Source: Branchiostoma floridae (Eukaryota; Chordata; Leptocardii; Amphioxiformes; Branchiostomatidae). From it: 64,000 nucleotides of DNA. Below are positions 36,292 to 64,000 of this stretch, piece after piece. The position numbers and the translations under genes were made by a program. Under the pieces are notes generated by a model. That model was not told the origin of the DNA, did no database searches, and saw only the letters and a list, made by a program, of their open reading frames with translations. Numbering within the stretch: position 1 is the stretch's first letter; the number at the start of each line of letters is the position of its first letter. The DNA lies in NCBI RefSeq assembly GCF_000003815.2, contig NC_049992.1:13431105-13495104 (forward strand), read 5' to 3'.

Positions 36292-39200
36292 ATGATTGCT
36301 CCGCATCGAGTTAGCGCTGTGCTAAGTTTGGGAGTTTTCTTCATACTCACAGGTACGTCAAGTTAACTACCCAAACACACCATTAGGTACGTGTAATTGA
36401 AAATACTCAGTCTTCAGTTGATCCCTTCTTCCTTCTTAAAACTTACGTGGAGAAGTGATAAAGATAATAAACATTGACAGAAAAATCGAAGTCGCGACAG
36501 GTTTTCATGCTAAATATCCCTGTATAACTTCACATATTCATTCAGGCACAACTAGCCATTATGTGGACGAAGGAAACCCTTACAAAACTGGGCCGCTTCC
36601 TGTCGAAAACTTCAACTTGTCAGAATCTGAGGATGATGCACCACGTCACGCCATCGGTAGGTGTCGCTCTCTAAGTTTAGACAGACCGTTTCAGACAGAC
36701 ATGTGCAACAACAGACCGCCTACATGTACATAACTGATTGTCTTTTGTAGATCTACCATTATGATAATCATATCAAAGGTGTGGTGCCGAATATGGCTAA
36801 ATATTTTATGAACACCTAAATGTATATGTGGTGGATATCTCAACTTATTTCAAGCTGTTCAAAGCAACATGTTCTTGTTTTGTTTCGGAATATAGATCTG
36901 TAAATGCATGTATGTCCTTATTAGTGTACTACCCGGCACGACCAGGAGTGTATGCCGTGCTGCTGTTCGTCGGAGGTTTTGACGGCGCCATTCGAGTTGA
37001 GATGGGATATACAGGTAGAGCAGAACTGCACCACAATAAAATAGCTGGGTCAACACTGCCCTGTCCAGATATGCCTATGGATTCTGAAAAAAAATGGATT
37101 CGAAGATGTATTCAAAACAAAATCAAATCAAAAAGTTTCTTCTGTAGGTCGAAAACGCAAATATTGCCAATAATTTGCATGCGTGAGTAGAAACAACGCA
37201 CAGTAATCATGGTCAGTCCATCAGGTCAAGTAAGCAAAATATGCTGCTTGTTGGAAGTGATTATACATAATAATGAATGTATGGATATTTTCTAGCTCAA
37301 ACGTTCTATAACGTTGCATATGTTTAATGTATGAAGTCGCTTACAATGTTATCAGTTTGGTCATGTTTAGCATACGTATTTCATTATCATTAATATATTA
37401 GTGGCCAAATTTGGACAGATGAAAAGGGTTTCATGGATATTCCTTTTGGTGTACAGGGCGGTGCCCATCTCTGTTTCTATAGCCCTTAGGTCACACAGAG
37501 TCACTGCAGTAGGGGACTAGTCCACCGGTAGTGGTATAATCTTATGTAGTTAGTACTATAGTAACAAACAGTAAAAGTGCACTTTCCGCAGACTTGCTGA
37601 GCCGTGTATCGGCACACGGGTTCGTGGTGATGGGGGTGGACATGCGGTCCGCTCATGGGACCGGCGGGCTTACCAGAGTCAGGGCTGCCTCACACCGGGG
37701 GAACCTCCCAGCTTCCCCGGCGCAAACGTTCTTACAGCAACTGGACTGGGTGAGACGCCTAATACATCTCAACTCTCCGGGTGTTCTGGATATGTAATAT
37801 GATGACTGTTGTAGCTCTAATTGAGTATATGTCTATGCAAGGACCTTATGTCCTTGACGATGTATGACTGGTAAACATTGACAGCAAGAAAATACAATAA
37901 AGAACATGATACTATAGACAATGAATTATAACACAGGGTAGACGAATACATGGCCAGCGATCTAGGCCCAGGTATATGAAAATACAGAAATCAATGCTTT
38001 CTGTGTCTTTCAGGCAAGGAAACACCTGAACGCTTACCTGTCCAACCAAACGGCAGGTGTGTCAGTGGACTGGGAGAAAACTGGTATCTTCTGTCACTCT
38101 GCAGGGTGTGCCATCACATTGGACATGATTCTACTCAATCACACGGGAGTTAAAGTAAGTTTACCGAAGTTTAGTAAAAGTAAAGGTCTAGATCTCCAGG
38201 TTCAACATCGCATCTTCAAGTTTCAACGAATCAAATTTTACATCTGCTAGCACAGAATTTCCATTTTGTTTACCAGTAGACATTCATGTAGATTATATTA
38301 AAGGAAGTGTACGCTCAAATCAGAGCACTCATTAACGTATCTATATGTATCCCGATTCTCTTGCAAGTCGACAGCGTTCCTCGAGCCGTTCAGTTTCGCC
38401 CTGTCCAGAGGCAGTTCCGTGGATTTCCGCCTGCCGGCGCTGATGTACGGCACGCAGTTTTGTGAGGATTTTCCTTTTTGCTGTGTCAAAGGTATGGACT
38501 GGAATCAAATCTACGACCACTGGTCCTGTCCCAAGACACTGTTGGCAACAAAGGTATGACGATAGATATTTCATTGTGGATATTACATATATGCGGTTTT
38601 ATGCGTACATAGCTTCAGGGAAGTATACAACAATGTATCATAGATGGCTCAAACTCTAGAATCCTGGGCACTGTGTACAAATTCTCTTCAATAACGATCA
38701 GACCAAGGAGCCTATATTCGGCAAAGTTAACGTTACGTATATATATATAATGATAATGGCAGCGAAAAGGTAACATAGAGTGAAGTAAATAAAACCAATG
38801 GTCAAACTACATGTTAGCAGCTAAATTTATGCTGTTGCTTTTACAGAATCAAGGACACTGTGATATTCTGGACCACACGATGTGGGAAAGTATGTATGAT
38901 CCTTATAACTACCACGGGAAATTCAGTTCTGCCTAATCATTTTTGTCGTTTGATCTATATCTAGGTTCCCTGCATCTGTCTTCCCTTTTGGTATCTTCGC
39001 AAGAATTATGAGTACAAGTTATCAAATATAAGACATATGGCAATGGGGTGAATAGTACTTCCCTCATCTCCAAGCAGATGTGAGATGACAAGTTGGGAAG
39101 GATAAATCATCACGCTATCCTCGCTGACATCGACATAAACGGGCAGCTAAAGAAAAACTAAGCTCCCTAACATCTGCTTGAAGAGTGGTGTCCTTCCCTT

Positions 39201-39735
39201 CTCTCTAGGTTTAAGTAGGGGATTGTTATAATTTTTTCTGAGGAAAGTAGATGTAACTGGTCGGCGGTGAGAAACCGTGTGCCAATCAGAATAATGTATC
39301 AACCCCCTTTAATATCTGTTCGGAGAGTGGTATTCTTTATTTTTGTCCTCTCACATCTTCTTTTCTGACTTTGGCATTATACGTCATTAGCACCCATTGT
39401 CGATATTTTTTTGCAAGATGTAGTATATATTTGCTCATTTTACGATCCAAAGCCTATTTATTTTTGGAAACGGCCTAAAATGGATGCTCGTGCGGATGTC
39501 ATCCATACACTCAAATCTAACATGGCCTAACTTTGACATTTCAGTATGCCACACCACACACTTCTGTAAGACGGGAGATGTTGACAACTGGGCGGAGTAC
39601 CACACCTTCATGCAGGGGTTTGTCTCCGCCTTCTTCATCAGTACTCTGCAGGGGGTCGACGACTGGCGATACCTCAGCAACGTCACTGACATCCCCATCG
39701 GGGTGATGAACGCCAAAAACGACACCAACTGTTAG
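36292..39735 (+). CDS. Secreted chlorophyllase-like hydrolase 1 (divergent)
   Basis: Eight exons: 36,292-36,352; 36,546-36,656; 36,925-37,014; 37,592-37,749; 38,014-38,154; 38,368-38,553; 38,847-38,889; 39,545-39,735. Phases join throughout and give 326 residues. Exon 1 is a signal peptide (VSAVLSLGVFFILTG). The alpha/beta-hydrolase core shows VYAVLLFVGGFDGA, SAHGFVVMGVDM, and the nucleophile elbow FCHSAGCA with its Ser. The C-terminal part has LMYGTQFCEDF, QGHCDI with a likely catalytic His, and CHTTHFCKTGD then FMQGFVSAFF. This matches plant chlorophyllases in order (PALVIG, GHLDM, then CK and VGG-AFL). Extra Cys suggest disulfides. The AATAAA at 39,799 fits as poly(A) signal. The natural substrate is unknown; hydrolysis of a chlorophyll phytyl ester or another lipid ester is inferred. 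Confidence 0.82.
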
Positions 39736-45571: not shown

Positions 45572-46612
45572 ATGGTGTTTAAGAACGGGAGGACAACATC
45601 TCTTATTTCGAAGATCTCCCAGCACGGTGAAGTGAAGACAATGGCCGTAGGCGCATCGGAGCTATCCGCCGGGACCGGGCCGAAATCAGGCGACAACACG
45701 TCCCGACCGCCCTCACGGAATAGGAACGCAACTGTGCCGATTCTACCGCGAACAGACAACAACAGCAAGGTTCTGAACACGAAGAAGGCATGGGGGATCG
45801 TCACAGAACCATCACCTAAAACCGCCGGTCTTCAAGGAAAAACAAAACAGCCGCTAGCCAAGTCCCACAGCCTTCCGGAGAAGGGAGGATCGACACCCCG
45901 TCTCGGAGAAAGTGACCCCAAGACAGGGAACTACTTCTACGACAGGGAACATTTCTTAAAGACTGGGAGACATCGTTATAGACTAGTTACTCATAAATCT
46001 AGCGAGGAGTTTAAACAAGTGGTTGAGGACATGTTCGTGGAAAAGCACGGTTGTCCCGGGACAGTGGAGAAGAAGAAAATCAATCGAGGTAGATGGGGCC
46101 GGGCCATGGGACTGAGTTCAGCGGCAATGGGCTTCAAAAATATCGCCAAGCTGGGAGCGAACCGACGAGCGATCTCAAGCAGCAACCTGTTGTCTAAGTC
46201 TCCGAGGGAATCAATTCTTATGAGGGCCACCTCTAAAATATTCTCCGTACCAGAGGAGATAAAGAGTGATACAAACAATGCTAAATTTAGTGACAAGTTC
46301 AAGAAAAGTTTTTACAACATCAAGGAAGGGAAAGGGTCGCCAAGATCTCAAAGCGACACGTCAGAGTCTTTCACAAGACCACGGCCACAGCGGAGGGCTT
46401 CAGTGCTGAGCATTGGGAGCAGGCCCCAGAGTAGGGCGTCGGAGGACCGGGTAGACCCGGCTACACGCGGATGGAACATGTTAAAATCCAGTCTCAGAGA
46501 CTCCGCAGCCATGGAAAGGGCCAACATAAAGACTCCGGCGGACCTGGAGCGGGCTAAAAGCGATTTGTATGAGAGATACGCATCTCCTTCACCTGGGAAA
46601 GCTGTGGAGTGA
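45572..46612 (+). CDS. Intronless gene, 346-residue basic low-complexity protein of unknown function
   Basis: A single open frame from ATG 45,572 (context cttcaATGG) to TGA. An inner ATG at 45,641 (MAVGASELSAG) is an alternative start. The product is rich in Ser, Arg, Lys and Pro. The first 110 residues look disordered. A more ordered middle (NYFYDREHFLKTGRHRYRLV, EEFKQVVEDMFVEKHGCPG) has mixed aromatic, acidic and hydrophobic residues. A basic Ser/Arg-rich tail (PRPQRRASVLSIGSRPQSRA) offers RRxS-type kinase sites, and the C-terminal section (PADLERAKSDLYERYASPSP) could be helical. There is no signal peptide or membrane segment, and I recognise no family. Codon use and absence of stops over 1 kb argue that it is real. 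AATAAA at 47,078-47,083 fits as the poly(A) signal. Confidence 0.7.
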   Translation: MVFKNGRTTSLISKISQHGEVKTMAVGASELSAGTGPKSGDNTSRPPSRNRNATVPILPRTDNNSKVLNTKKAWGIVTEPSPKTAGLQGKTKQPLAKSHSLPEKGGSTPRLGESDPKTGNYFYDREHFLKTGRHRYRLVTHKSSEEFKQVVEDMFVEKHGCPGTVEKKKINRGRWGRAMGLSSAAMGFKNIAKLGANRRAISSSNLLSKSPRESILMRATSKIFSVPEEIKSDTNNAKFSDKFKKSFYNIKEGKGSPRSQSDTSESFTRPRPQRRASVLSIGSRPQSRASEDRVDPATRGWNMLKSSLRDSAAMERANIKTPADLERAKSDLYERYASPSPGKAVE

Positions 46613-51835: not shown

Positions 51836-54800
51836 ATGTCCCGACTTTCGTGGTTTGTACTCTTTGTCACGTTTCTCACGAAGCTGTGGACCACAGGTGA
51901 GTTTTAGAGGTTGTTCTTTTTATGATGATTGTCGTATCACTTGAAGTATTTGGTATTCCTGGAAAGTAATTGCACTATGCGTTAAAATTTGTTAAAGAAG
52001 CAATTTTTGCACAAGCATTTTCGTTAAATCACGGTCTGTGTCGGAGAGCCAAGACCATATCCATCCAAAGTCAAAACTTAGTTTAGGCCACCTTTCCACG
52101 GACGTCGATCAATGACGGCCGGTGCGGTTACATTCGTCATGAGGTCGTCTTACGATTTTAATGTTGAAGGATTTTCTATTCTCCAAGCAGAGGTTGGGTC
52201 GCTCAGTTAGCAGTGGTTGGGATTTTTCCCGACTCCCTCCCCTCACAAGCCGCCCGACCACTGCTATCTCCGCGACTGTGACACAACTAACCCTGCGGCA
52301 AGGATCTAAGACTGTGTTTTTAGTAACAAGACAGTTGACATTCACACGACACATAAAATGTACGGCTATCTCAAGAATAACCTCAGTTCCCGATCGATCG
52401 ACGATCGTACGACGAGTGTAACCGCCCTGAGCTACAGTACAGCAACCAAAAGTGTAACCCTTGATTTCAAAACTATGATATGACGCATGGAAAAAGAAGT
52501 CGAAGCATATAAAATGACTGGGGTTATTTCATTGACTTTCAATTGTGGCCTTTTGTACGACATGAGCAAGACTATACACGGAATGCCAACAGTTGCGAAT
52601 GTGACAGGGTCCTATAAGGAAAAAAAGAACCCCTTACCGACCCATCTGTTTGGTGACAAGTGTAACGAAGACCTCTCAATCAATGATTCTTAACATGTCT
52701 GACAAACTTTACTTGAACCATCCTTTCAATACTTAACTCATCGCAATTCGTCGTTTAGGATGATGGGGCGTGAAACCAATGACTTAGGCCTACGTCACAT
52801 TTCCAAACCGGGACCGACTGGACAGCTTTCGGGAACGAAAAGTATGATATACAAGACACCAAACTACACAAGACTTAAAAGAAAGTCGTGGGCATTTTTT
52901 GTATACATTTTTACGAATATCTATTTGTCGTTTTCACCAAGGACATCATATAATATCCTTGTTTCCACAAACAATCCCGTCGGGCGCAGGTTTGGAAATG
53001 TGACGTTAGCCTTAGTGTGCAGGCGTGAGCTTCAGGGGTAAGCCTAGGGCGTCAAACCTCTGCACACAGAAGAACTCAGCACACTAGAGAAGAGTTAAAA
53101 TGCGAGCCGTATCGAAGCTGCACTGTACTAAATACATCTTCCTTCACCTTTAAATGCTTGAACTTTATCCAGTCCTTGACACATTTTAGAGGTACTCGAA
53201 AGTACGGATGCCTCATAACCGAGAGTAACCCCGTCAGAGTATGACGCCATTAGAATACTGTGCAAATAACAGAGACAAGACAGGGCCTGGCAATGCATTG
53301 GCCTTTATGTAGTTTGGGAAGATTCATTCCGTACAAAATATGTTAAGAATATTAGTGTGATACATTCGAAGTGCGCCGGGTTTGGAACTCCTCTGGTTTT
53401 CAGTTCTCTTCCCTCTGAAGAGCTGCAAATCCCGACTGAAAGTTTCAGTCGGGAAGTTTTTGGCAAGGTGGGCGACTAGGCCCGGATTCGGACCCACGTT
53501 GCAGGTCATTTGCTGGGTCATATTTGACGTTAGTAAGCGGGTTTCCAGCGATTGTGTTAGGCAATATTTGAACATTCACCACAAGACTTTTGCTGACGGC
53601 CTGGAGTTTGGACCCCTGACCTCCACATGCGTGCACGACATTGAGTGACAAGGTGACAAAGAGAGAGTGTGAAAGTTTTATAGTCCATAGTCTGAGGCAT
53701 GATTATATATACATATAAGAGGATTTTTTGCCAGAGGTATTAGCCAGCTATGGGAACTTCCTCGAGAAAGCTATCATTCTATTTTGTTTTGGCTCTACAA
53801 TAAAACAACAAATCAGAAGCCAAACAACGACTCGCAACAACTACGAGACTTTGGTGTTCCGTAAAAGAAAAAAAAGTGCCCTTAAGTCGCTATTGAAGCA
53901 TTTTGTATGTCTCCTGTTGTATCTTGTCCCTTTAAATTTGTTCTTTTTGTCTCAGCCCAAGCCGTTTACGTGGACGATGGAAATCCGTTCGAAGAAGGGG
54001 ACCTGGACGTCCTTACGTTGTCTATCAGCCAGAATGATGCTCCTATGCTAACCAAAGGTAATGCAGATATACTTCTACTTCTACTTCTACTTCTACATCA
54101 ACATAATACAGGGCCAAGTGCCTCAAGGTACATTGCGTCCTAGAGGCATAAATACAAATGTGCTTCTATATAAAATCTATATTTAAAAAATGACTTCCAC
54201 ACTTTTGCAATGTGATTTGAGCGACGATCAATTCACGACCACTCCTCTAAAATGCTCTACAGTTTATTACCCGACGAGAATCGACACATACGCCGTCCTC
54301 TTCTTCACTGGGGGGTACCAAGGCGACATCCCTTCCGAACTATACAGCGATGTGTTAGTGCGGATTGCCAGACACGGGTATGTGGTCATCGGTGTAGACT
54401 ACATGCCCATGGAAACGGTACAAGCTAACGTAAGAGACAGGACTCCGAGGCTTGTAGGCGACCACACACAGAAATACATGGAAGAACTGCAGTGGGTATG
54501 TAGTATATAAACTTTATCAGCTTGAATTGTTGATCGTAAAGACAGGGACCTCAGACCTGTCATGCGCTACAGAGTTATCTGGAGGGACTTCATAGTGTCA
54601 CCAGATGGATGAACAAGCTTGAATTTAGGGAATATGGTCTTTTCTATACCTGGGAGTTATCACGATAATCAGAAACGCGTCCCCTGCCCCCCATGTACTC
54701 TTCTACCTGCTTTCAAAGTCATTGCTCGTTAAAAAAATGCCAATACGTCAATCATCTAACGTTCAAAAGGAGCGGATGGGTGCGTCAGTTTTCTTTACTC

Positions 54801-57800
54801 AGCGATCACTTATTGTTGACTTAGGCTTAATAGGTCCCATTTCCGAAACAGGGGCCGGCCGGGATGTTTACGGAAGCGAAAAATAAAAGTTTTTATCAAG
54901 GAAAATACAGAAAGTATGCTCCTGACTAATTATTTTACTTTCTGTGTGTTTTGTTTCCTTTCTTATAATATATTTCGTTTCCAAAAGTTTCCCGACCGGG
55001 CCCCGGGTTCAGGGAATTAGGACCTAGGCCTTAGACCTCAGGCCGCACACGGGGTTCAAAAAGTTTTTGTAGAAAACATAGTCTTTGTAGTAACAAAGCA
55101 CCTGTAACATACAGGTAACAAAACACCTGGAGGGAAGAATCGCCAAGCAGCTGAACCGAACCGGACTGGTGCCGGACTTCAGCCACCTGGGGATCGGCTG
55201 CCACTCAGCGGGATGTGACCCACTGGTTAAGATGACCCTGCAGCATCACACCTTCTCAAAGGTTAATGACAATGACAATGATGATGATGATGATGATCTT
55301 TATTTGCATGACCTTGCCCATATGGGCTAAATGCAGTAGTTACATAAAACTTTGCTGTAAAGAATCTTTACAGTGGCAGTGGGAGAGACAGAACAACTAA
55401 GGCTATGCTACACTATAAGTACATCTATCGTTTACAAAATAGTCAAATATGTAATGCTATACTATTCTACAATTTACATGTCTCTTTCCTCTTCTTGAAA
55501 CAAGTGTATATGAATTCACAGAGTTTTTGCAGTACAATGTTGTCAGATGATTTCATTATGTATACAAAAAGCTCATCTTTTACTAACTGTTTAGCTCGTG
55601 TATCAAAATTCAGGGCATTAATAAAAGAATTACGTATATCACTATATAACTCACACTCCAATACAAAATGAACTTCATTTTCAATATCTTTGGCGTTACA
55701 AAGTGTACAGATTCTATCACTCGGAGGAGTCCGGTTGTATCTTCCTACTTCTATTTGTAAAGGGTGATCACTAATTCTTAATTTAGCCATGGCTCGGCGA
55801 TGGCTGAAATTATGTATATTTAGGTACTGTTCTCTTTCGTAGGTGTCTTTGAACTTCCTGTATGTTCTTAGTTTGTTTCCTTGATTTTCCTTTTTTTCCA
55901 TTAGAGTTGAGTTCGGAATTGAAAGTCTGTAGATATATGTCTTTCAATCTTTGTTTCACTTGCGACTGAGCTGATGGTATATTATAGTCTTGGTTCAACA
56001 GTAGGTACCCATAACCAGACTCCTCGAGAATCTTACTTACATTTGAAAGCCAACATGGTACCTTACGTCGGTGTAGATGTTGTTGTACAAGGAGTGCTTG
56101 ATATTGTAAACTATTTGTTGGTACTTCTCTAGTTAACCTGCTATAATAAGAGTAGAGCCTGCTGTAAGCCTCGATCCGCAAAGGAAACCTGCCAAGTTCC
56201 GCTCTTGTGGCGAGGTTACTAGCATTTCTTCTTACTCCAATGATAGCTTTACAGAATTTCAAATGTGCTTGCTCTAGTGGGGAATTATCATTTAAACCAG
56301 CATTGCCCCACACTTCTGCACCATACAACAATATAGGTACAATACATGCATCAAATAACTTACATTGCAGTGATACTGAGGGATTATTTTCGCCCAGAGT
56401 TGTTCTAATGCTAAACATCGCTCTTAGCGCCTTCTTTTGGAGGGTTTTCATGGCTGTGCTGAAGTTACATCCCGCTGTGAATACCACGCCTAAATAACAA
56501 TATGAGGAGACTACATCTAGGTCTTTGTCTAATAAATAGAATTTAAAGTTTGACAATATTTCTCCTTTTCTATTAAAAATGATAATTTTTGTTTTCTTGA
56601 GGTTTACTGATAGTTTCCACTTGCTGCAGTAGAGACCGAGAATATTGATTGCATTCTGTAGGCCACGTTGACTTGATGATAAGATAACAACGTCATCGGC
56701 ATAAAATAAACTCGATACTTGAGATGAATGGAGAATAGGAGCATCCAGGTCTCCTGTATTGAGATCGTTTACTAAATCGCTAATGTACAGATTAAATAAT
56801 GAGGGGCTTAATACACAGCCCTGTCTCACGCCGATTTCTATTTGTTAATAAATAACAAAGCAGCAGTAGATACGCCTAGATGTATGACTTTTAGAACTAT
56901 TGGCCGATAAGAAGGGACAGCGGTTGGCAAATGGAAGCACCATCTGGTACAATGATTTTGGAAAGCGGGCTATGATATTAGACATAAATGGTCAGGATTG
57001 TTTCCGAAAGACAACCCCTGCCTGGTTTTTAAGCACATTTACGATGATTCGAAACGTTTAGCAAATTCGTAGGAATTCCTTAGCATGCAATATAAGAAAG
57101 TAAGTCACTTAGATGTTAATGCACTCAGATTTACAACTGTTTTAAGAAGTGACAAGAATTTGAATTTGCGCATAATGATATACATTAGACTTTATACATT
57201 TATTAAGATACAACGTTCTTATATCACTCATTGTACTTAGCTCTTAATCATTCATTCTTAATTTTGTATCAATAGGCAGCCCTATTGCTAGAACCATTCA
57301 GCTTTAACTATGCAACCCCGGTGACGTTCAAAATGCCTGCCCTCATACTCGGCACGGAGTTGTCGACCCAACCACACGTTTGCGTCCGTCCTGGACAGGG
57401 GTACAATCACTTCTACGACATGTGGAAGTGTCCACGAATGCTGATGGAAGTCAAGGTAAGCATAAATTATGCAGATTTTTTACCTGGAACTTTATACGAA
57501 GAAGGGAGATTCCGATCAGGCAGTTATACATACCAAACTTCCAAGTGAGATTGAATATGAATGTCACTTGTTCAAAACTGGTCCCTTTTCATACATTTTT
57601 ATGCTTTTTCTATCTTTTCTATTTTTATTTCGATGTCTAATTTTCATCTTGAATTTTGATAGGGTCATGGCCATTGCGACATGTACAACGAAACGTGGTA
57701 CAAAGGTAAGATACAATTTTCGTTTCCCTTCTCCTAACACCGTACCCAAAGCGACAACCGAAACTCAATCGGTCGCTGCTCGTAGTCCTACAGACGATTA

Positions 57801-58154
57801 GATTGAAACACTAAAGCTAAAACGTTTGATGCTAAAATAATCTATAGCAGAAACGTCAATGTTCTATCCCGGTACAAAAAAGTATGAGATTAGCACGAAA
57901 TTAATATGAGATGTTGTACAAGTCAACCAAGCATGTGTGTCATGTTTGCTGTCTCGTTCCTAGCGTGCCAGTTAACCCACTTCTGTAAGACCAACCCAGA
58001 CGTTGACATCAACAAGTACCACGGCTTCGTCCAGGGCATCAGCGCGGCCTTCCTCACCACCACCCTACAGGGGCGGGACAAGCTGCAGTACATCACCAAC
58101 ACTACCGCACTACCTGTGGAGCTGATGGAGTTTAAGATAGACATGAACTGTTGA
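51836..58154 (+). CDS. Secreted chlorophyllase-like hydrolase 2
   Basis: Seven exons: 51,836-51,896; 53,956-54,057; 54,263-54,495; 55,115-55,261; 57,276-57,455; 57,663-57,705; 57,964-58,154. GT-AG junctions and phases agree, giving 318 residues. Signal peptide in exon 1 (LSWFVLFVTFLTKLW). Core segments: YAVLFFTGGYQGDIPSELYS, RHGYVVIGVDYMP, nucleophile elbow GIGCHSAGCDP, MPALILGTELS, GHGHCDMYNETWYK with a likely catalytic His, and LTHFCKTNPDVD then HGFVQGISAAFL. These align in order with plant chlorophyllases, which have a GHSRGG elbow, while lancelet-type proteins have Cys before His-Ser. Exon 3 equals fused exons 3 and 4 of gene 1. Intron 4 carries a LINE. Substrate inferred as a pigment or lipid ester in the gut lumen. 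Confidence 0.87.
52782..53017. mobile_element. Inverted-repeat element, copy 1, in intron 1 of chlorophyllase-like gene 2
   Basis: The left end ACTTAGGCCTACGTCACATT is complementary to the right end (aatgtgacgttagccttagt). Its sister copy is at 54,819-55,034 in intron 3. Confidence 0.7.
54819..55034. mobile_element. Inverted-repeat element, copy 2, in intron 3 of chlorophyllase-like gene 2
   Basis: The left end ACTTAGGCTTAATAGGTCCC is roughly complementary to the right end (gacctaggccttaga). Inner arms share GGGCCGG-type sequence with copy 1. No transposase. Confidence 0.65.
55268..56843 (-). mobile_element. 5'-truncated LINE (reverse transcriptase part) in intron 4 of chlorophyllase-like gene 2
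   Basis: On the minus strand, one frame (56,829-55,810) gives GVRQGCVLSPSLFNLYISDL, LFYADDVVIL (YADD catalytic site) and LSVNLKKTKIIIF, which are reverse transcriptase motifs of non-LTR type. A second overlapping frame (55,901-55,467) gives CTLCNAKDIENEVHFVLECE, a Cys/His C-terminal motif of several LINE clades. The two frames are joined by a frameshift, so this copy is dead. It starts inside the RT domain; endonuclease and ORF1 are missing. The 3' end has AATAAAGATCATCATC repeats. GTTAAT flanks it (55,262-55,267 and 56,844-56,849), and gene 3 has the empty site at 60,917. CR1/Jockey-like is likely, clade uncertain. Confidence 0.88.
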
Positions 58155-59244: not shown

Positions 59245-61822
59245 ATGTTTCGACTTTCGTGGTTTGTACTAGTCGGCACCTTCATCACCCAGCTGTGGAC
59301 CCCAGGTGAGTTTGTAGAGACAGTTCATCGTACGATGAACTTGCTTTCACATGATGGCTTTTTCTTCCGATTTTAAACTATTTGGTTCAGCTGTATGTTG
59401 AAAAATCAAATCAGAGACCAATAGACCAATAAATTTTGAACATGCGACATTCAATGTGTATCTTACTTCGCATGTCGCACATATAGCTGTCGGAATCGGC
59501 CTCGTCATCTGGAATTCCAGGTAAAACTCTCTATACTTTATAGTTTACGATTACCTTAACTTCCATCAGCAATCGTGGACACTTCCACATGTCGTAGAAG
59601 TGGTTGTACCCCTTCCCAGCTTGGACGCAAACGTGTGGTTGGGTCGACAACTTCGTGCCGAGTATGAGGGCAGGCATTTTGAACGTCACCGGGGTTGCAT
59701 AGTTAAATCTAAATGGTTCCAATAATAGAGCAGCCTGTTGATACAAATTTAGTGATTATTATTTTATATGGTTCACGGTAAGGAATTTTAAAGATTTCGG
59801 TGTATACGTTTCAAAATATATATACCCTAAACTAAATGTAATCTCCAAGCAGATCCTACAATGGCATAAGATAGTTCTGAACTGGCCAAGGAATGTTTTC
59901 AGCCAAGAGGTACCCGTGTACATTTGCCACGTAGACACACACACACACACTCTTGGGCCGGCTTCACTCCTCTGTAAAGAGTCTGTGGAGTGTCGTAAAA
60001 GAAAAAAAAAAGAAACATTGCAAAAGTTGTCATTGAAAGTACTTGGTAATATGTCTCCTTGTGCATCCCGTGCTTACTTTTTTTTTCAGCCCAAGGAGTC
60101 TACGTGGACGATGAGAATCCATTCGATACAGGGAACCTAGGAGTCCTCACGTTGACTATCAGCCAGGGAGACGCTCCCATGCTCACCAAAGGTAAAGCAG
60201 AGATAAACCTACATGTATATGATACACAAGTGCTTCTAATAAAAGATTACAACACCTAACTTTTATACTGTGCATTTTACGACGATCAATCCATGACAAC
60301 ATTAAGTTCATACCAAAATGATCTACAGTTTTTACCCGACGAGGATCGACACATACGCCATCCTCTTCTTCACCGGAGGCTACCAGGGCGACATCCCGTC
60401 AGAAATATACAGCGATGTGTTAGTGCGCATTGCCAAACACGGGTATGTGGTCATCGCCGCAGACTACGTGCCCTTGGTAACGAATCAAGCTAATGTGAGA
60501 GACAGGACTCTAAGGCTCGCAGGCGATCACACACAGAAATACTTTGAAGAACTGCAGTGGGTACGTAACTTAAATCAGCTTGAATTTGAGGCATTTGGTC
60601 CTTTCTATACCAAGGAGTTCTCATGATAATCAGAAACGCGTCGTCTGCCCCTCTTAAACTCTTCTACCTGCTTTCAAAGTCATAGCTCGTTGGAATTTGG
60701 AATAATGTCAATACGCCTATCCGTAACGAGTGGATGAGTGTGTAGTAATGAGTCACCTGCCACCTACAGGTAACAAAACGCCTGGAGGGAAGAATCGCCA
60801 AGCAGCTGAACCGAAACGGACTGGTGCCGGACTTCAGCCACCTGGGGATCGGCTGCCACTCAGCGGGATGTGACCCACTGGTTAAGATGACCCTGCAGAA
60901 TCACACCTTCTCAAAGGTTAATAAATAATAGCGCAACTGTAGATAAACGTAGATATATGACTTGTAGAACTGATGACGTCACGACCGACAAGAAGGGATA
61001 GTCTGTGGTTGTTACATTGAGACATTGTATTGTACAAAGATGACATGATTCTGGAAAAGCAGAGTATGCGATAAGTTTGAGGGCATGAATATCGCCCTAT
61101 TGAAGTAGCAATTGTATCTGGAAGTGCAACTGCGTATGTCACTTGTTCTCAAGCAGATCCTACGGTAGCATAAGATAGTATCAAAAGCTGCCAGAGGAGT
61201 GAAGCCGGCCCAAGAGTGTGGGTGTGTGTGCCTACGTGGCAAATGTACACGGGTACCTCTTGGCTGAAAACACTCCTTGGCCAGTTCAGTACTATCTTAT
61301 GCCATTGTAGGATCTGCTTGGAGATTACATTTACGGTATATATGTTTTGAAACGTATACACCGAAATCTTTAAAATTCCTTAGCGTGAACCATATAAAAT
61401 AATAATCACTAAATTTGTATCAACAGGCTGCTCTATTATTGGAACCATTTAGCTTTAACTATGCAACCCCGGTGACGTTCAAAATGCCTGCCTTCATACT
61501 CGGCACGGAGTTGTCGACCCAACCACACGTTTGCGTCCAAGCTGGGAAGGGGTACAACCACTTCTACGACATGTGGAAGTGTCCACGAATGCTGATGGAA
61601 GTTAAGGTAATCGTCAACTATAAAGTATAGAGAGTTTTACCTGGAATTCCAGATGACGAGGCCGATTCCGACAGCTATATGTGCGACATGCGAAGTAAGA
61701 TACACATTGAATGTCGCATGTTCAAAACTGGTTCCTTTTCGTATTAAAGATTTTGAATGTTTGTCTTGAATTTTCACAGGGTCATGGTCACTGCGAGATG
61801 GTCAACGACACATGGTATAAAA
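59245..61822 (+). CDS. Secreted chlorophyllase-like hydrolase 3 (last exon not in window)
   Basis: Six exons: 59,245-59,305; 60,090-60,191; 60,307-60,560; 60,770-60,916; 61,427-61,606; 61,780-61,822. The sequence parallels gene 2: signal peptide (LSWFVLVGTFITQLW), YAILFFTGGYQGDIPSEIYS, GIGCHSAGCDP, MPAFILGTELS, GHGHCEMVNDTWYK. Exon 3 is unusual. The acceptor used in gene 2 has an equivalent at 60,329, but it would be one base out of frame; an upstream AG (exon start 60,307) restores the frame and adds eight residues. The exon with CKT and VQGISAAFL is not found before 62,220. A LINE begins near 61,985 within what would be intron 6, so the last exon probably lies beyond the window. Read-through of exon 6 would stop at 61,956. 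It could be functional or a young pseudogene. Confidence 0.75.
59440..59971 (-). repeat. Inverted partial duplication of chlorophyllase-like gene 3 (exon 5 and flanks)
   Basis: This block in intron 1 is the reverse complement of about 61,190-61,726, with few differences. It contains an extra, wrongly oriented exon 5 copy (LLLEPFRFNYATPVTFKMPA on the minus strand), its acceptor and donor, and part of introns 4 and 5. The two copies could pair as a long hairpin in the transcript. The copy keeps an open frame. Confidence 0.88.
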
Positions 61823-61984
61823 GTAAGACACGGTCTTTCATGTTCCCCTCTCCTGATAGGCTCTGCAAAGAAACACACGCTGCTCTTTGTCTTATGAAAC
61901 GATTGGGGAAGAAACACGAAAACAGTGATAAACGAATACCGTTGACGCTAAAATGATTTATAGTAGGCACGTACAATCACGGCT

Positions 61985-64000
61985 TCCACATTATAGATGG
62001 CGGCGGAGGTGGTCACGCCGATTCCACGCTCCTGCTGAGATAAGTTTAAAAGTGTTCTTACCGAGCAGATCTACAATATTTTCCAACCAAAAGACTCTGT
62101 ATATATATTTCCATCAACTCTGATTTATATCGGGTGCCTTTTTCCCTTATTCTTGGATATCTTGACGAATTTACGATTTTCCGTGAAACCCAAGCCAACC
62201 CAAGCCAACTTCGGACGCCATGATGACCGACCCAAGCGCTCACGAGGATTTGTACTCCGTACTTGGTGTATCTTCTTCGGCAACTCCTGATGACCTTGTG
62301 GAAGCGTACAAAAAGGAGGTCAAGCTGTACGAGAACGCGTCTAAACTCGGCAGAAGTAAGGAAGCGTCCAAAGAAGCTTTGACAAGACACAAGGAGGTAA
62401 GCAGATCGTTCAGTATACTATCCGACGTGTCCCGAAGACAACGGTATGACAACAGCGGCTCTGTAGCTGTCCCTACCAAAATCACAAAGAAGTCACGCAA
62501 ACAGTCAGCAGATTACTGCATTAACAAGAATGAGCAAAGTGTCACGATATTTTTACCCCCGAACCTTGCAACCTCTTGGCTCTCCAAGTGCGAAGAACAT
62601 CACTCAACCCGAGCAACGAGAAAGGCACCGGTAAATAACCGAGTAGCAAAGGGCAGGGTCACTGACAATGGCCACCAGATCAAAACCGTGTTCACAGATA
62701 CCCAATCTCAAGACATCGTAGGTTCTGTCAGTATCACGGTCTATGAATCTACAAACAAGATTCTAGTTCAGGGTTCCGCTTATCTGTTGTGGTTCACGGA
62801 AGTATTCCCTGTTCTAAAAGAGGCAATTGACACTGCGTGTACCGACAAAATCAAGGCTCAATCATCCTTGACAGAATCGGAAGAACCCAGTCTAGTTGTA
62901 TCGTTGGACACAGCAGATAGCCCCCCCTTGTGCCCAGTATGTGAACAACCTATGTTGGCTGGCGTTTGCGCTTCGTGTGAAACTGTGCCTAAAGTCGTGC
63001 TAGACTGCAACAGTAATGATTTGCGTCCTGTTGAACTTGAGGAAACGGTAGAAGACACAAGTGCTCCTCCTAGCCATATCACGGCTAACAAGTCCACTCC
63101 TGTCATCCCTGCCGACTACTCTATTCTTCAGGAAAATGTGAACAAACTGGAATCTTGTCTTGTTGAGTCAATTTCAGTTCAAAAAAACTCTGAGACCTCA
63201 ATCCTGCAAAGACTGTCTTTACTGGAGGACAGGCTGAAAGCCCGTGATCAAAACCATGTCTGTGACGGACTATCTGCCCTTGAGAAAAGGAAACTCTTAG
63301 AAGATGTTGCGCGTTTGGAAAGTGTAAAATGTGAGCTCGAGAATCAAGTTCAGTCACTCCAACGCAAATACAACGAGCTGTCAAGTGCTATGCAGAAGGT
63401 TCAATTGTCGGGTTCACACGGTCAGACAAAATCGACGGAGACGCAAACCACCCAGGAGGCCTCAGATCGCGCCGACAATTTACTGTATGAACTGTCTAAT
63501 CATATCAGCGTCAGCAACAGATTTCAAGTTCTAGATGAGGACAACAATAAGAACAGCCCCGACAATACATTTTCAAACCCTGGTGCAAAACGCCGTCGCC
63601 AAACACACAAAACAGGCGCGAACATGTCTCCCGTTCAGGACAAAGCGGAATACAGGATCTCTGAATCAACAATCACACAGCATCAGCATTGTAAAGACAT
63701 GCCGCCGGATGTGTTAATCTTGGGTGACTCCAATACAAAGCCAATCAAGCCAGACGTCATGTATCCAGACAAACGCGTAACAAAAGAGATAACCTACAAC
63801 ATAACACAAGCTACAGACCACATCCAACAATCAACCATGCCCGCCCCCAAAGTTATCCTGTTTAATGTTGGAACAAACGATGTCAGAGATAAGCGGGATC
63901 CAATGGCTGTTACTGAGAGTTTTCGAAAACTCATTCAGACTTCCCGCGATAAGTTCCCACACACTCCCCTAGTTTTCTCCGCCATTCCCCCCAGACGTGA
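61985..64000 (+). mobile_element. LINE, 5' part, inserted in intron 6 of chlorophyllase-like gene 3
   Basis: Similarity to intron 6 of gene 2 stops near 61,975. A GC-rich leader starting near gatggcggcggaggtggtca (about 61,996) follows, then a long ORF1-like frame to the edge. The identification as a LINE rests on the ORF1-like protein; the reverse transcriptase would be right of the window. The left boundary is approximate. Confidence 0.6.
62220..64000 (+). CDS. LINE ORF1-like protein: J-like domain, zinc-ribbon-like cluster, coiled coil, SGNH hydrolase-like domain (runs off window)
   Basis: Open from ATG 62,220 to the edge, 593 codons without a stop. Residues 9-75 look like a J domain (EDLYSVLGVSSSATPDDLVE, then SRSFSILSDVSRRQRYDNSG), but the HPD needed to stimulate Hsp70 is replaced (KLYENAS). 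About 108-204 is a domain seen in LINE ORF1 proteins (VTIFLPPNLA, LVQGSAYLLWFTEVFPVLKE). Residues 238-253 carry CPVCEQPMLAGVCASC, a zinc-ribbon-like pair of CxxC. About 300-390 is coiled coil (LQRLSLLEDRLKARDQ, LENQVQSLQRKYNEL). A basic patch follows (GAKRRRQTHK). From about 499 an SGNH hydrolase-like domain has block I LILGDSN (GDSN near 502) and block III LFNVGTNDV (551). Esterase-bearing ORF1 proteins are known in CR1-like LINEs. A domesticated host gene is the alternative. Confidence 0.72.
   Translation, partial: MMTDPSAHEDLYSVLGVSSSATPDDLVEAYKKEVKLYENASKLGRSKEASKEALTRHKEVSRSFSILSDVSRRQRYDNSGSVAVPTKITKKSRKQSADYCINKNEQSVTIFLPPNLATSWLSKCEEHHSTRATRKAPVNNRVAKGRVTDNGHQIKTVFTDTQSQDIVGSVSITVYESTNKILVQGSAYLLWFTEVFPVLKEAIDTACTDKIKAQSSLTESEEPSLVVSLDTADSPPLCPVCEQPMLAGVCASCETVPKVVLDCNSNDLRPVELEETVEDTSAPPSHITANKSTPVIPADYSILQENVNKLESCLVESISVQKNSETSILQRLSLLEDRLKARDQNHVCDGLSALEKRKLLEDVARLESVKCELENQVQSLQRKYNELSSAMQKVQLSGSHGQTKSTETQTTQEASDRADNLLYELSNHISVSNRFQVLDEDNNKNSPDNTFSNPGAKRRRQTHKTGANMSPVQDKAEYRISESTITQHQHCKDMPPDVLILGDSNTKPIKPDVMYPDKRVTKEITYNITQATDHIQQSTMPAPKVILFNVGTNDVRDKRDPMAVTESFRKLIQTSRDKFPHTPLVFSAIPPRR

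Follow-up and report, generated by a model that had tools for sequence, protein, structure and literature searches.

The window, which comprises 64,000 nucleotides of the Branchiostoma floridae genome (contig NC_049992.1, positions 13,431,105 to 13,495,104 of the forward strand), contains three copies of a chlorophyllase-like gene, referred to here as A (53958-58154), B (60092-61824) and C (36560-39732), and a long open reading frame that follows copy B and runs to the right-hand end of the sequence. The name chlorophyllase-like is weakly supported by Pfam, where the two chlorophyllase matches (E 2.4e-5 and 0.062) both lie below the cut-off. The exons are numbered after the five mapped exons of copy B followed by the final exon in copy A; there may be a further first exon. 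The exon matches found with tblastn begin at the following positions.

Copy A: 53958, 54265, 55112, 57279, 57666 and 57963
Copy B: 60092, 60327, 60767, 61430 and 61783
Copy C: 36560, 36927, 38011, 38377 and 39544

No match to the small fifth exon was obtained in copy C at E 1e-3. The sixth and last mapped exon is present in copies A and C, starting about 255 bases past the fifth exon in copy A and lying about 990 bases from the fourth exon in copy C. In copy B no such exon was detected with tblastn at E 10 as far as position 64000, some 2390 bases past its fourth exon. The frame of interest begins at 62220, which is 396 bases past the fifth mapped exon of copy B, and hence sits roughly where the last mapped exon of this copy would be expected. 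Copies A and B can be aligned in their last intron for part of this distance: the BLAST match between them ends at 57735/61854, a further short match covers 57826-57860/61942-61977 (E 0.003), and a forced global alignment beyond 57860/61977 gave no clear match.

The fourth exon of copy B and its surroundings are also found in reverse orientation. A part of this exon together with the next intron (61500-61727) is 98.7% identical to an inverted copy at 59434-59661, upstream of the first mapped exon of copy B. The fourth exon is repeated in full, again inverted, at 59549-59731 and, since the search began at 61500, the arms of the inverted repeat must extend further. The inverted copy, close to copy B, shows that rearrangement has taken place at the locus.

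The frame itself, the leader presumed to precede it and the parts of its protein are listed below with the evidence for each.

61978..62219, + strand: presumed 5' untranslated leader, some 240 bases long, with an approximate left boundary (end of the A/B intron match)
62220..63998, + strand: open reading frame of 593 sense codons (ORF list, stop counts, shuffles)
62247..62450, + strand: J domain, residues 10-77, with the HPD motif absent (PF00226, PDB DnaJ and NCBIfam DnaJ matches)
62520..62870, + strand: middle region, about residues 101-217 (family searches below cut-offs)
62931..62978, + strand: CxxC-x8-CxxC zinc-ribbon-like knuckle, residues 238-253 (sequence)
63300..63419, + strand: possible coiled coil, about residues 361-400 (LIVM heptad score)
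63588..63599, + strand: basic KRRR stretch at residue 457 (sequence)
63690..63998, + strand: first part of a putative SGNH hydrolase domain, with GDSN and GTND (PF13472, 4c1b)

An in-frame stop at 62184-62186 precedes the frame, which then stays free of stops up to the window end at 64000, so that 593 codons is a lower bound for its length. The remaining five frames across 62220-64000 hold 22 to 38 stops apiece, and in 1000 shuffles of the bases of this interval, read in all six frames, the longest stop-free stretch reached 216 codons. The uninterrupted frame of 593 codons described in an earlier, sequence-only reading of this DNA is thereby borne out, and no intron is in view within it.

The length of the frame bears on whether it could be an ordinary or transposon-derived host gene, with J-like and SGNH domains, downstream of a chlorophyllase copy that was truncated. 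The intact frame and the rearrangement at the locus would fit such a gene, as would the texim-like SGNH genes reported in amphioxus in the available text of PMC4021074. Moreover, the 64 kb window holds no second copy of the frame: a search with the protein returned, besides the match to itself, four or five matches of 10 to 62 residues with E values of 2.6-9.7. Against a host gene stand the 593 intronless codons, where the longest mapped exon of the adjacent gene family has 78, and the start of the frame just 396 bases beyond the fifth mapped exon of copy B. A host gene is considered quite unlikely.

The locus is most simply read as copy B having received, within its last intron, an insertion of some 2 kb or more, a reading supported by the absence of the last mapped exon of this copy up to 64000 and its presence in copies A and C. 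The alternative is that copy B has been truncated or rearranged instead of interrupted. As the frame is located about where the last host exon should be, and ends in what resembles the start of an esterase, it probably encodes a protein of a mobile element.

The best-defined part of this protein is its N-terminus. PF00226 matches residues 10-77 over the entire profile (positions 1-63 of 63) with an E value of 6e-8 and 33.1 bits, above the gathering cut-off of 27.8. Solved J domains also match by sequence in a PDB search, the best being 2dmx_A (E 1.6e-6), and the matching residues extend along the domain as far as its closing YD. The NCBIfam DnaJ models match within residues 1-99 only; the families recovered are DnaJ and other J-domain families, together with one weak match to an RNA polymerase family. 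By its profile, then, the J domain of the frame is a real one, and the DnaJ-like signature noted from the letters at the start of the frame has been confirmed; a profile search that returned no J-domain hit would have spoken against it, and the match obtained is significant.

The HPD motif, which lies between helices II and III, is required for the stimulation of Hsp70 by J proteins. A sequence search found this motif nowhere in the 593 residues, in agreement with its absence as first remarked. In the alignment with 2dmx the HPD position is occupied by N39-A40-S41 instead, and in the alignments with two DnaJ2 chains by E38-N39 plus K42, the latter set off by a gap in the J chain. Whilst the protein shares the whole J-domain profile with the DnaJ/Hsp40 proteins, it differs from them in this motif, and the usual driving of Hsp70 is not expected of it. 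Since HPD is needed to stimulate Hsp70 and is absent here, the protein is best termed J-like and not a working J protein. Tim16/Pam16 are HPD-less J-like proteins in which a J fold without HPD serves for docking; the likeness is in this feature, drawn from general knowledge, and concerns another protein in another setting. The loss of HPD could also mean that the domain does not serve as a fold, being either a remnant in decay or a likeness due to chance. This is extremely improbable given the match to the whole PF00226 profile (E 6e-8), in which agreement continues as far as the closing YD.

Relatives were sought in viral, prokaryotic and phage collections, which gave at most J-domain matches. 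No relatives were found among viral contigs with the whole protein and the middle region as queries, or among prokaryote genome contigs with the whole protein, each being a single-protein query that detects close relatives only. The phage collection returned 32 records and, among the 20 listed, every match starts within residues 7-12 and 18 end by residue 90; the other two of these 20, both from uncultured phages, reach residues 128 (E 3e-4) and 145 (E 0.8).

The region that follows the J domain has no assigned family. Nothing in Pfam matches the middle region above cut-off, the best being PF17961 Big_8 (E 0.0018, 18.8 bits against a cut-off of 22.9), and Big_8, Enas and similar matches, all of them below their cut-offs, were set aside. 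No NCBIfam family was found at E <= 1, the best PDB sequence match has an E value of 1.3, and the best PHROG match is weak (E 0.046). The region may form an alpha/beta domain, to judge by eye only. Beyond it lie the CxxC pairs that had been picked out from the sequence, and these are indeed present as C238/C241 and C250/C253; a Pfam search of the piece 62871-63200 that contains them gave no family match.

Around residues 361-400 the sequence shows a heptad pattern that hints at a coiled coil, the element proposed for this part of the protein. The best LIVM heptad score was, however, matched by 37 of 300 shuffles of the whole protein, and when residues 300-410 were shuffled 1000 times, 26 of the products reached it. 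The basic stretch at residue 457 is a possible nuclear-localisation or RNA-binding peptide, to judge from its composition.

The C-terminal piece looks like the start of a putative SGNH hydrolase. GDSN is found at residue 502 and GTND at residue 551, as expected for the SGNH esterase proposed earlier, but the support from PF13472 is partial and below the cut-off of 32.9 bits: the E value is 4.2e-4 with the whole protein and 1.6e-5 with the 103-residue piece, and the match spans the GTND part only, leaving out GDSN. The OSK and Lipase_GDSL models match the same piece below their cut-offs as well (E 0.0052 and 0.0059). When the piece was searched against the PDB, two sequences reached E 1. The better of these is 4c1b, the esterase encoded by ORF1 of the LINE ZfL2-1, which matches over the GTND part with an E value of 0.012, above the usual 0.001. 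The second is a platelet-activating-factor acetylhydrolase subunit (E 0.52), in which the GDSN of the frame aligns with the GDS block; taken singly, neither match reaches significance. The end of the window cuts through the putative SGNH domain, whose catalytic His block would fall beyond 64000.

SGNH domains are carried by several kinds of mobile element. According to the available text of PMC3905857, the ORF1 protein (ORF1p) of ZfL2-1 contains a coiled coil, its SGNH domain binds membranes and shows weak activity, and esterase ORF1ps are present in many animal phyla, in CR1, RTEX and Penelope-like elements. The ORF1 domains named in the portions of PMC4120745 at hand are few: RRM, CCHC, PHD, esterase, zinc finger/leucine zipper and CTD. 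The frame is probably the ORF1p, a gag-like first protein, of a retroelement, most plausibly of an esterase-bearing LINE, that inserted into copy B within its last intron. The whole PF00226 match, 4c1b as the best solved match and the long intronless frame all count towards a LINE ORF1. One point against it is that no endonuclease or reverse transcriptase accompanies the frame in a window that ends inside the SGNH domain; further points on this side are that the window contains no second copy of the frame, that copy B may be truncated or rearranged, and that the SGNH match is partial and below the Pfam cut-off. The missing host exon, as a sign of insertion, and the weak match to an ORF1 esterase lend support to the ORF1 part of the original suggestion, that of a recent LINE, whilst for its being recent the intact frame is the single indication.

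The element need not be a LINE, as Penelope-like elements, LTR elements and Helitrons may also carry SGNH domains. Penelope-like elements with such domains are described in PMC3905857, bdelloid LTR and Athena elements in PMC5408684, and Helitron-borne fish texim SGNH genes in PMC4021074, so far as the accessible parts of these papers go. The best solved SGNH match is, however, to the esterase of a LINE ORF1, though a weak one, and the available text of PMC4021074 gives no Helitron tie in amphioxus and assigns multiple introns to the texim genes. An origin from one of these other elements is judged unlikely. The texim hydrolases resemble the frame in being chordate SGNH genes, tied to Helitrons in fish, and are set apart from it by their description in the same partial text, with multiple introns and no mention of a J domain.

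For the LINE ORF1p, the closest known class is that of the type IV (esterase) ORF1ps of CR1/L2 LINEs such as ZfL2-1, whose layout resembles that of the frame, where the putative SGNH domain comes behind the possible coiled coil and the KRRR stretch. A zinc finger/leucine zipper, with a possible counterpart here in the CxxC pairs, is described for some type IV ORF1s (PMC4120745, in part). In contrast, an N-terminal J domain and a middle region like those of the frame are not described for type IV proteins in the text available. Within the Jockey superfamily the esterase-type ORF1 is limited to vertebrate L2 and CR1 subgroups in the accessible part of PMC4120745, which disfavours a CR1/L2 element in a lancelet. 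The likely position is that the class, an esterase-type retroelement ORF1, is a known one and that the addition of an HPD-less J domain is new. No J domain in an ORF1 protein was found in the literature searched, which consisted of titles and the starts of abstracts, mostly without subscription papers, and such a scope leaves absence unproven. There is likewise no mention of one in the available portions of PMC3905857, PMC4120745, PMC5408684 and PMC4021074; the string 'DnaJ' in PMC4120745 is a false match to 'DNAJ Virol' in the reference list.

The arrangement of the protein allows a role to be proposed for each part. The ORF1p may self-associate via its putative coiled coil and hold the RNA of the element via the zinc knuckle and the basic peptide, and the SGNH domain, by analogy with the ZfL2-1 esterase, would make contact with membranes or lipids. 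With HPD missing, a trigger of the Hsp70 ATPase is not expected of the J domain, which would most likely act in docking or assembly, as a helical module. The role of chaperone decoy, also suggested from the letters, finds no support in the analysis. It is conceivable, though doubtful, that a LINE clade acquired a J domain from a host, placed N-terminally in an esterase-type ORF1p, lost the HPD motif, and now uses the domain to dock on, or compete in, the Hsp70 or J-protein network so as to build or release RNA particles. If so, this would be a retroelement with a built-in co-chaperone mimic. Little is understood about how LINE ORF1 proteins work, and a J-like domain in one of them would implicate chaperones in the retroelement life cycle.

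A YY1-like motif near the 5' end of a LINE can be a promoter sign. The YY1-like ATGGCGGC at 61997, close to the presumed left boundary of the element, was considered in this light and dropped, as three such motifs occur in the window and 8 of 100 shuffles equal that number. Across the window, Rfam gave no match at gathering scores. Elsewhere, an open frame of 346 amino acids at 45572-46612 (+ strand) has no Pfam match at E 0.1, and the same is true of a frame at 55467-55901. The latter adjoins a reverse transcriptase fragment from another retroelement (PF00078, E 4.2e-16; 55810-56829, - strand), which falls within copy A, after its third mapped exon and before its fourth.
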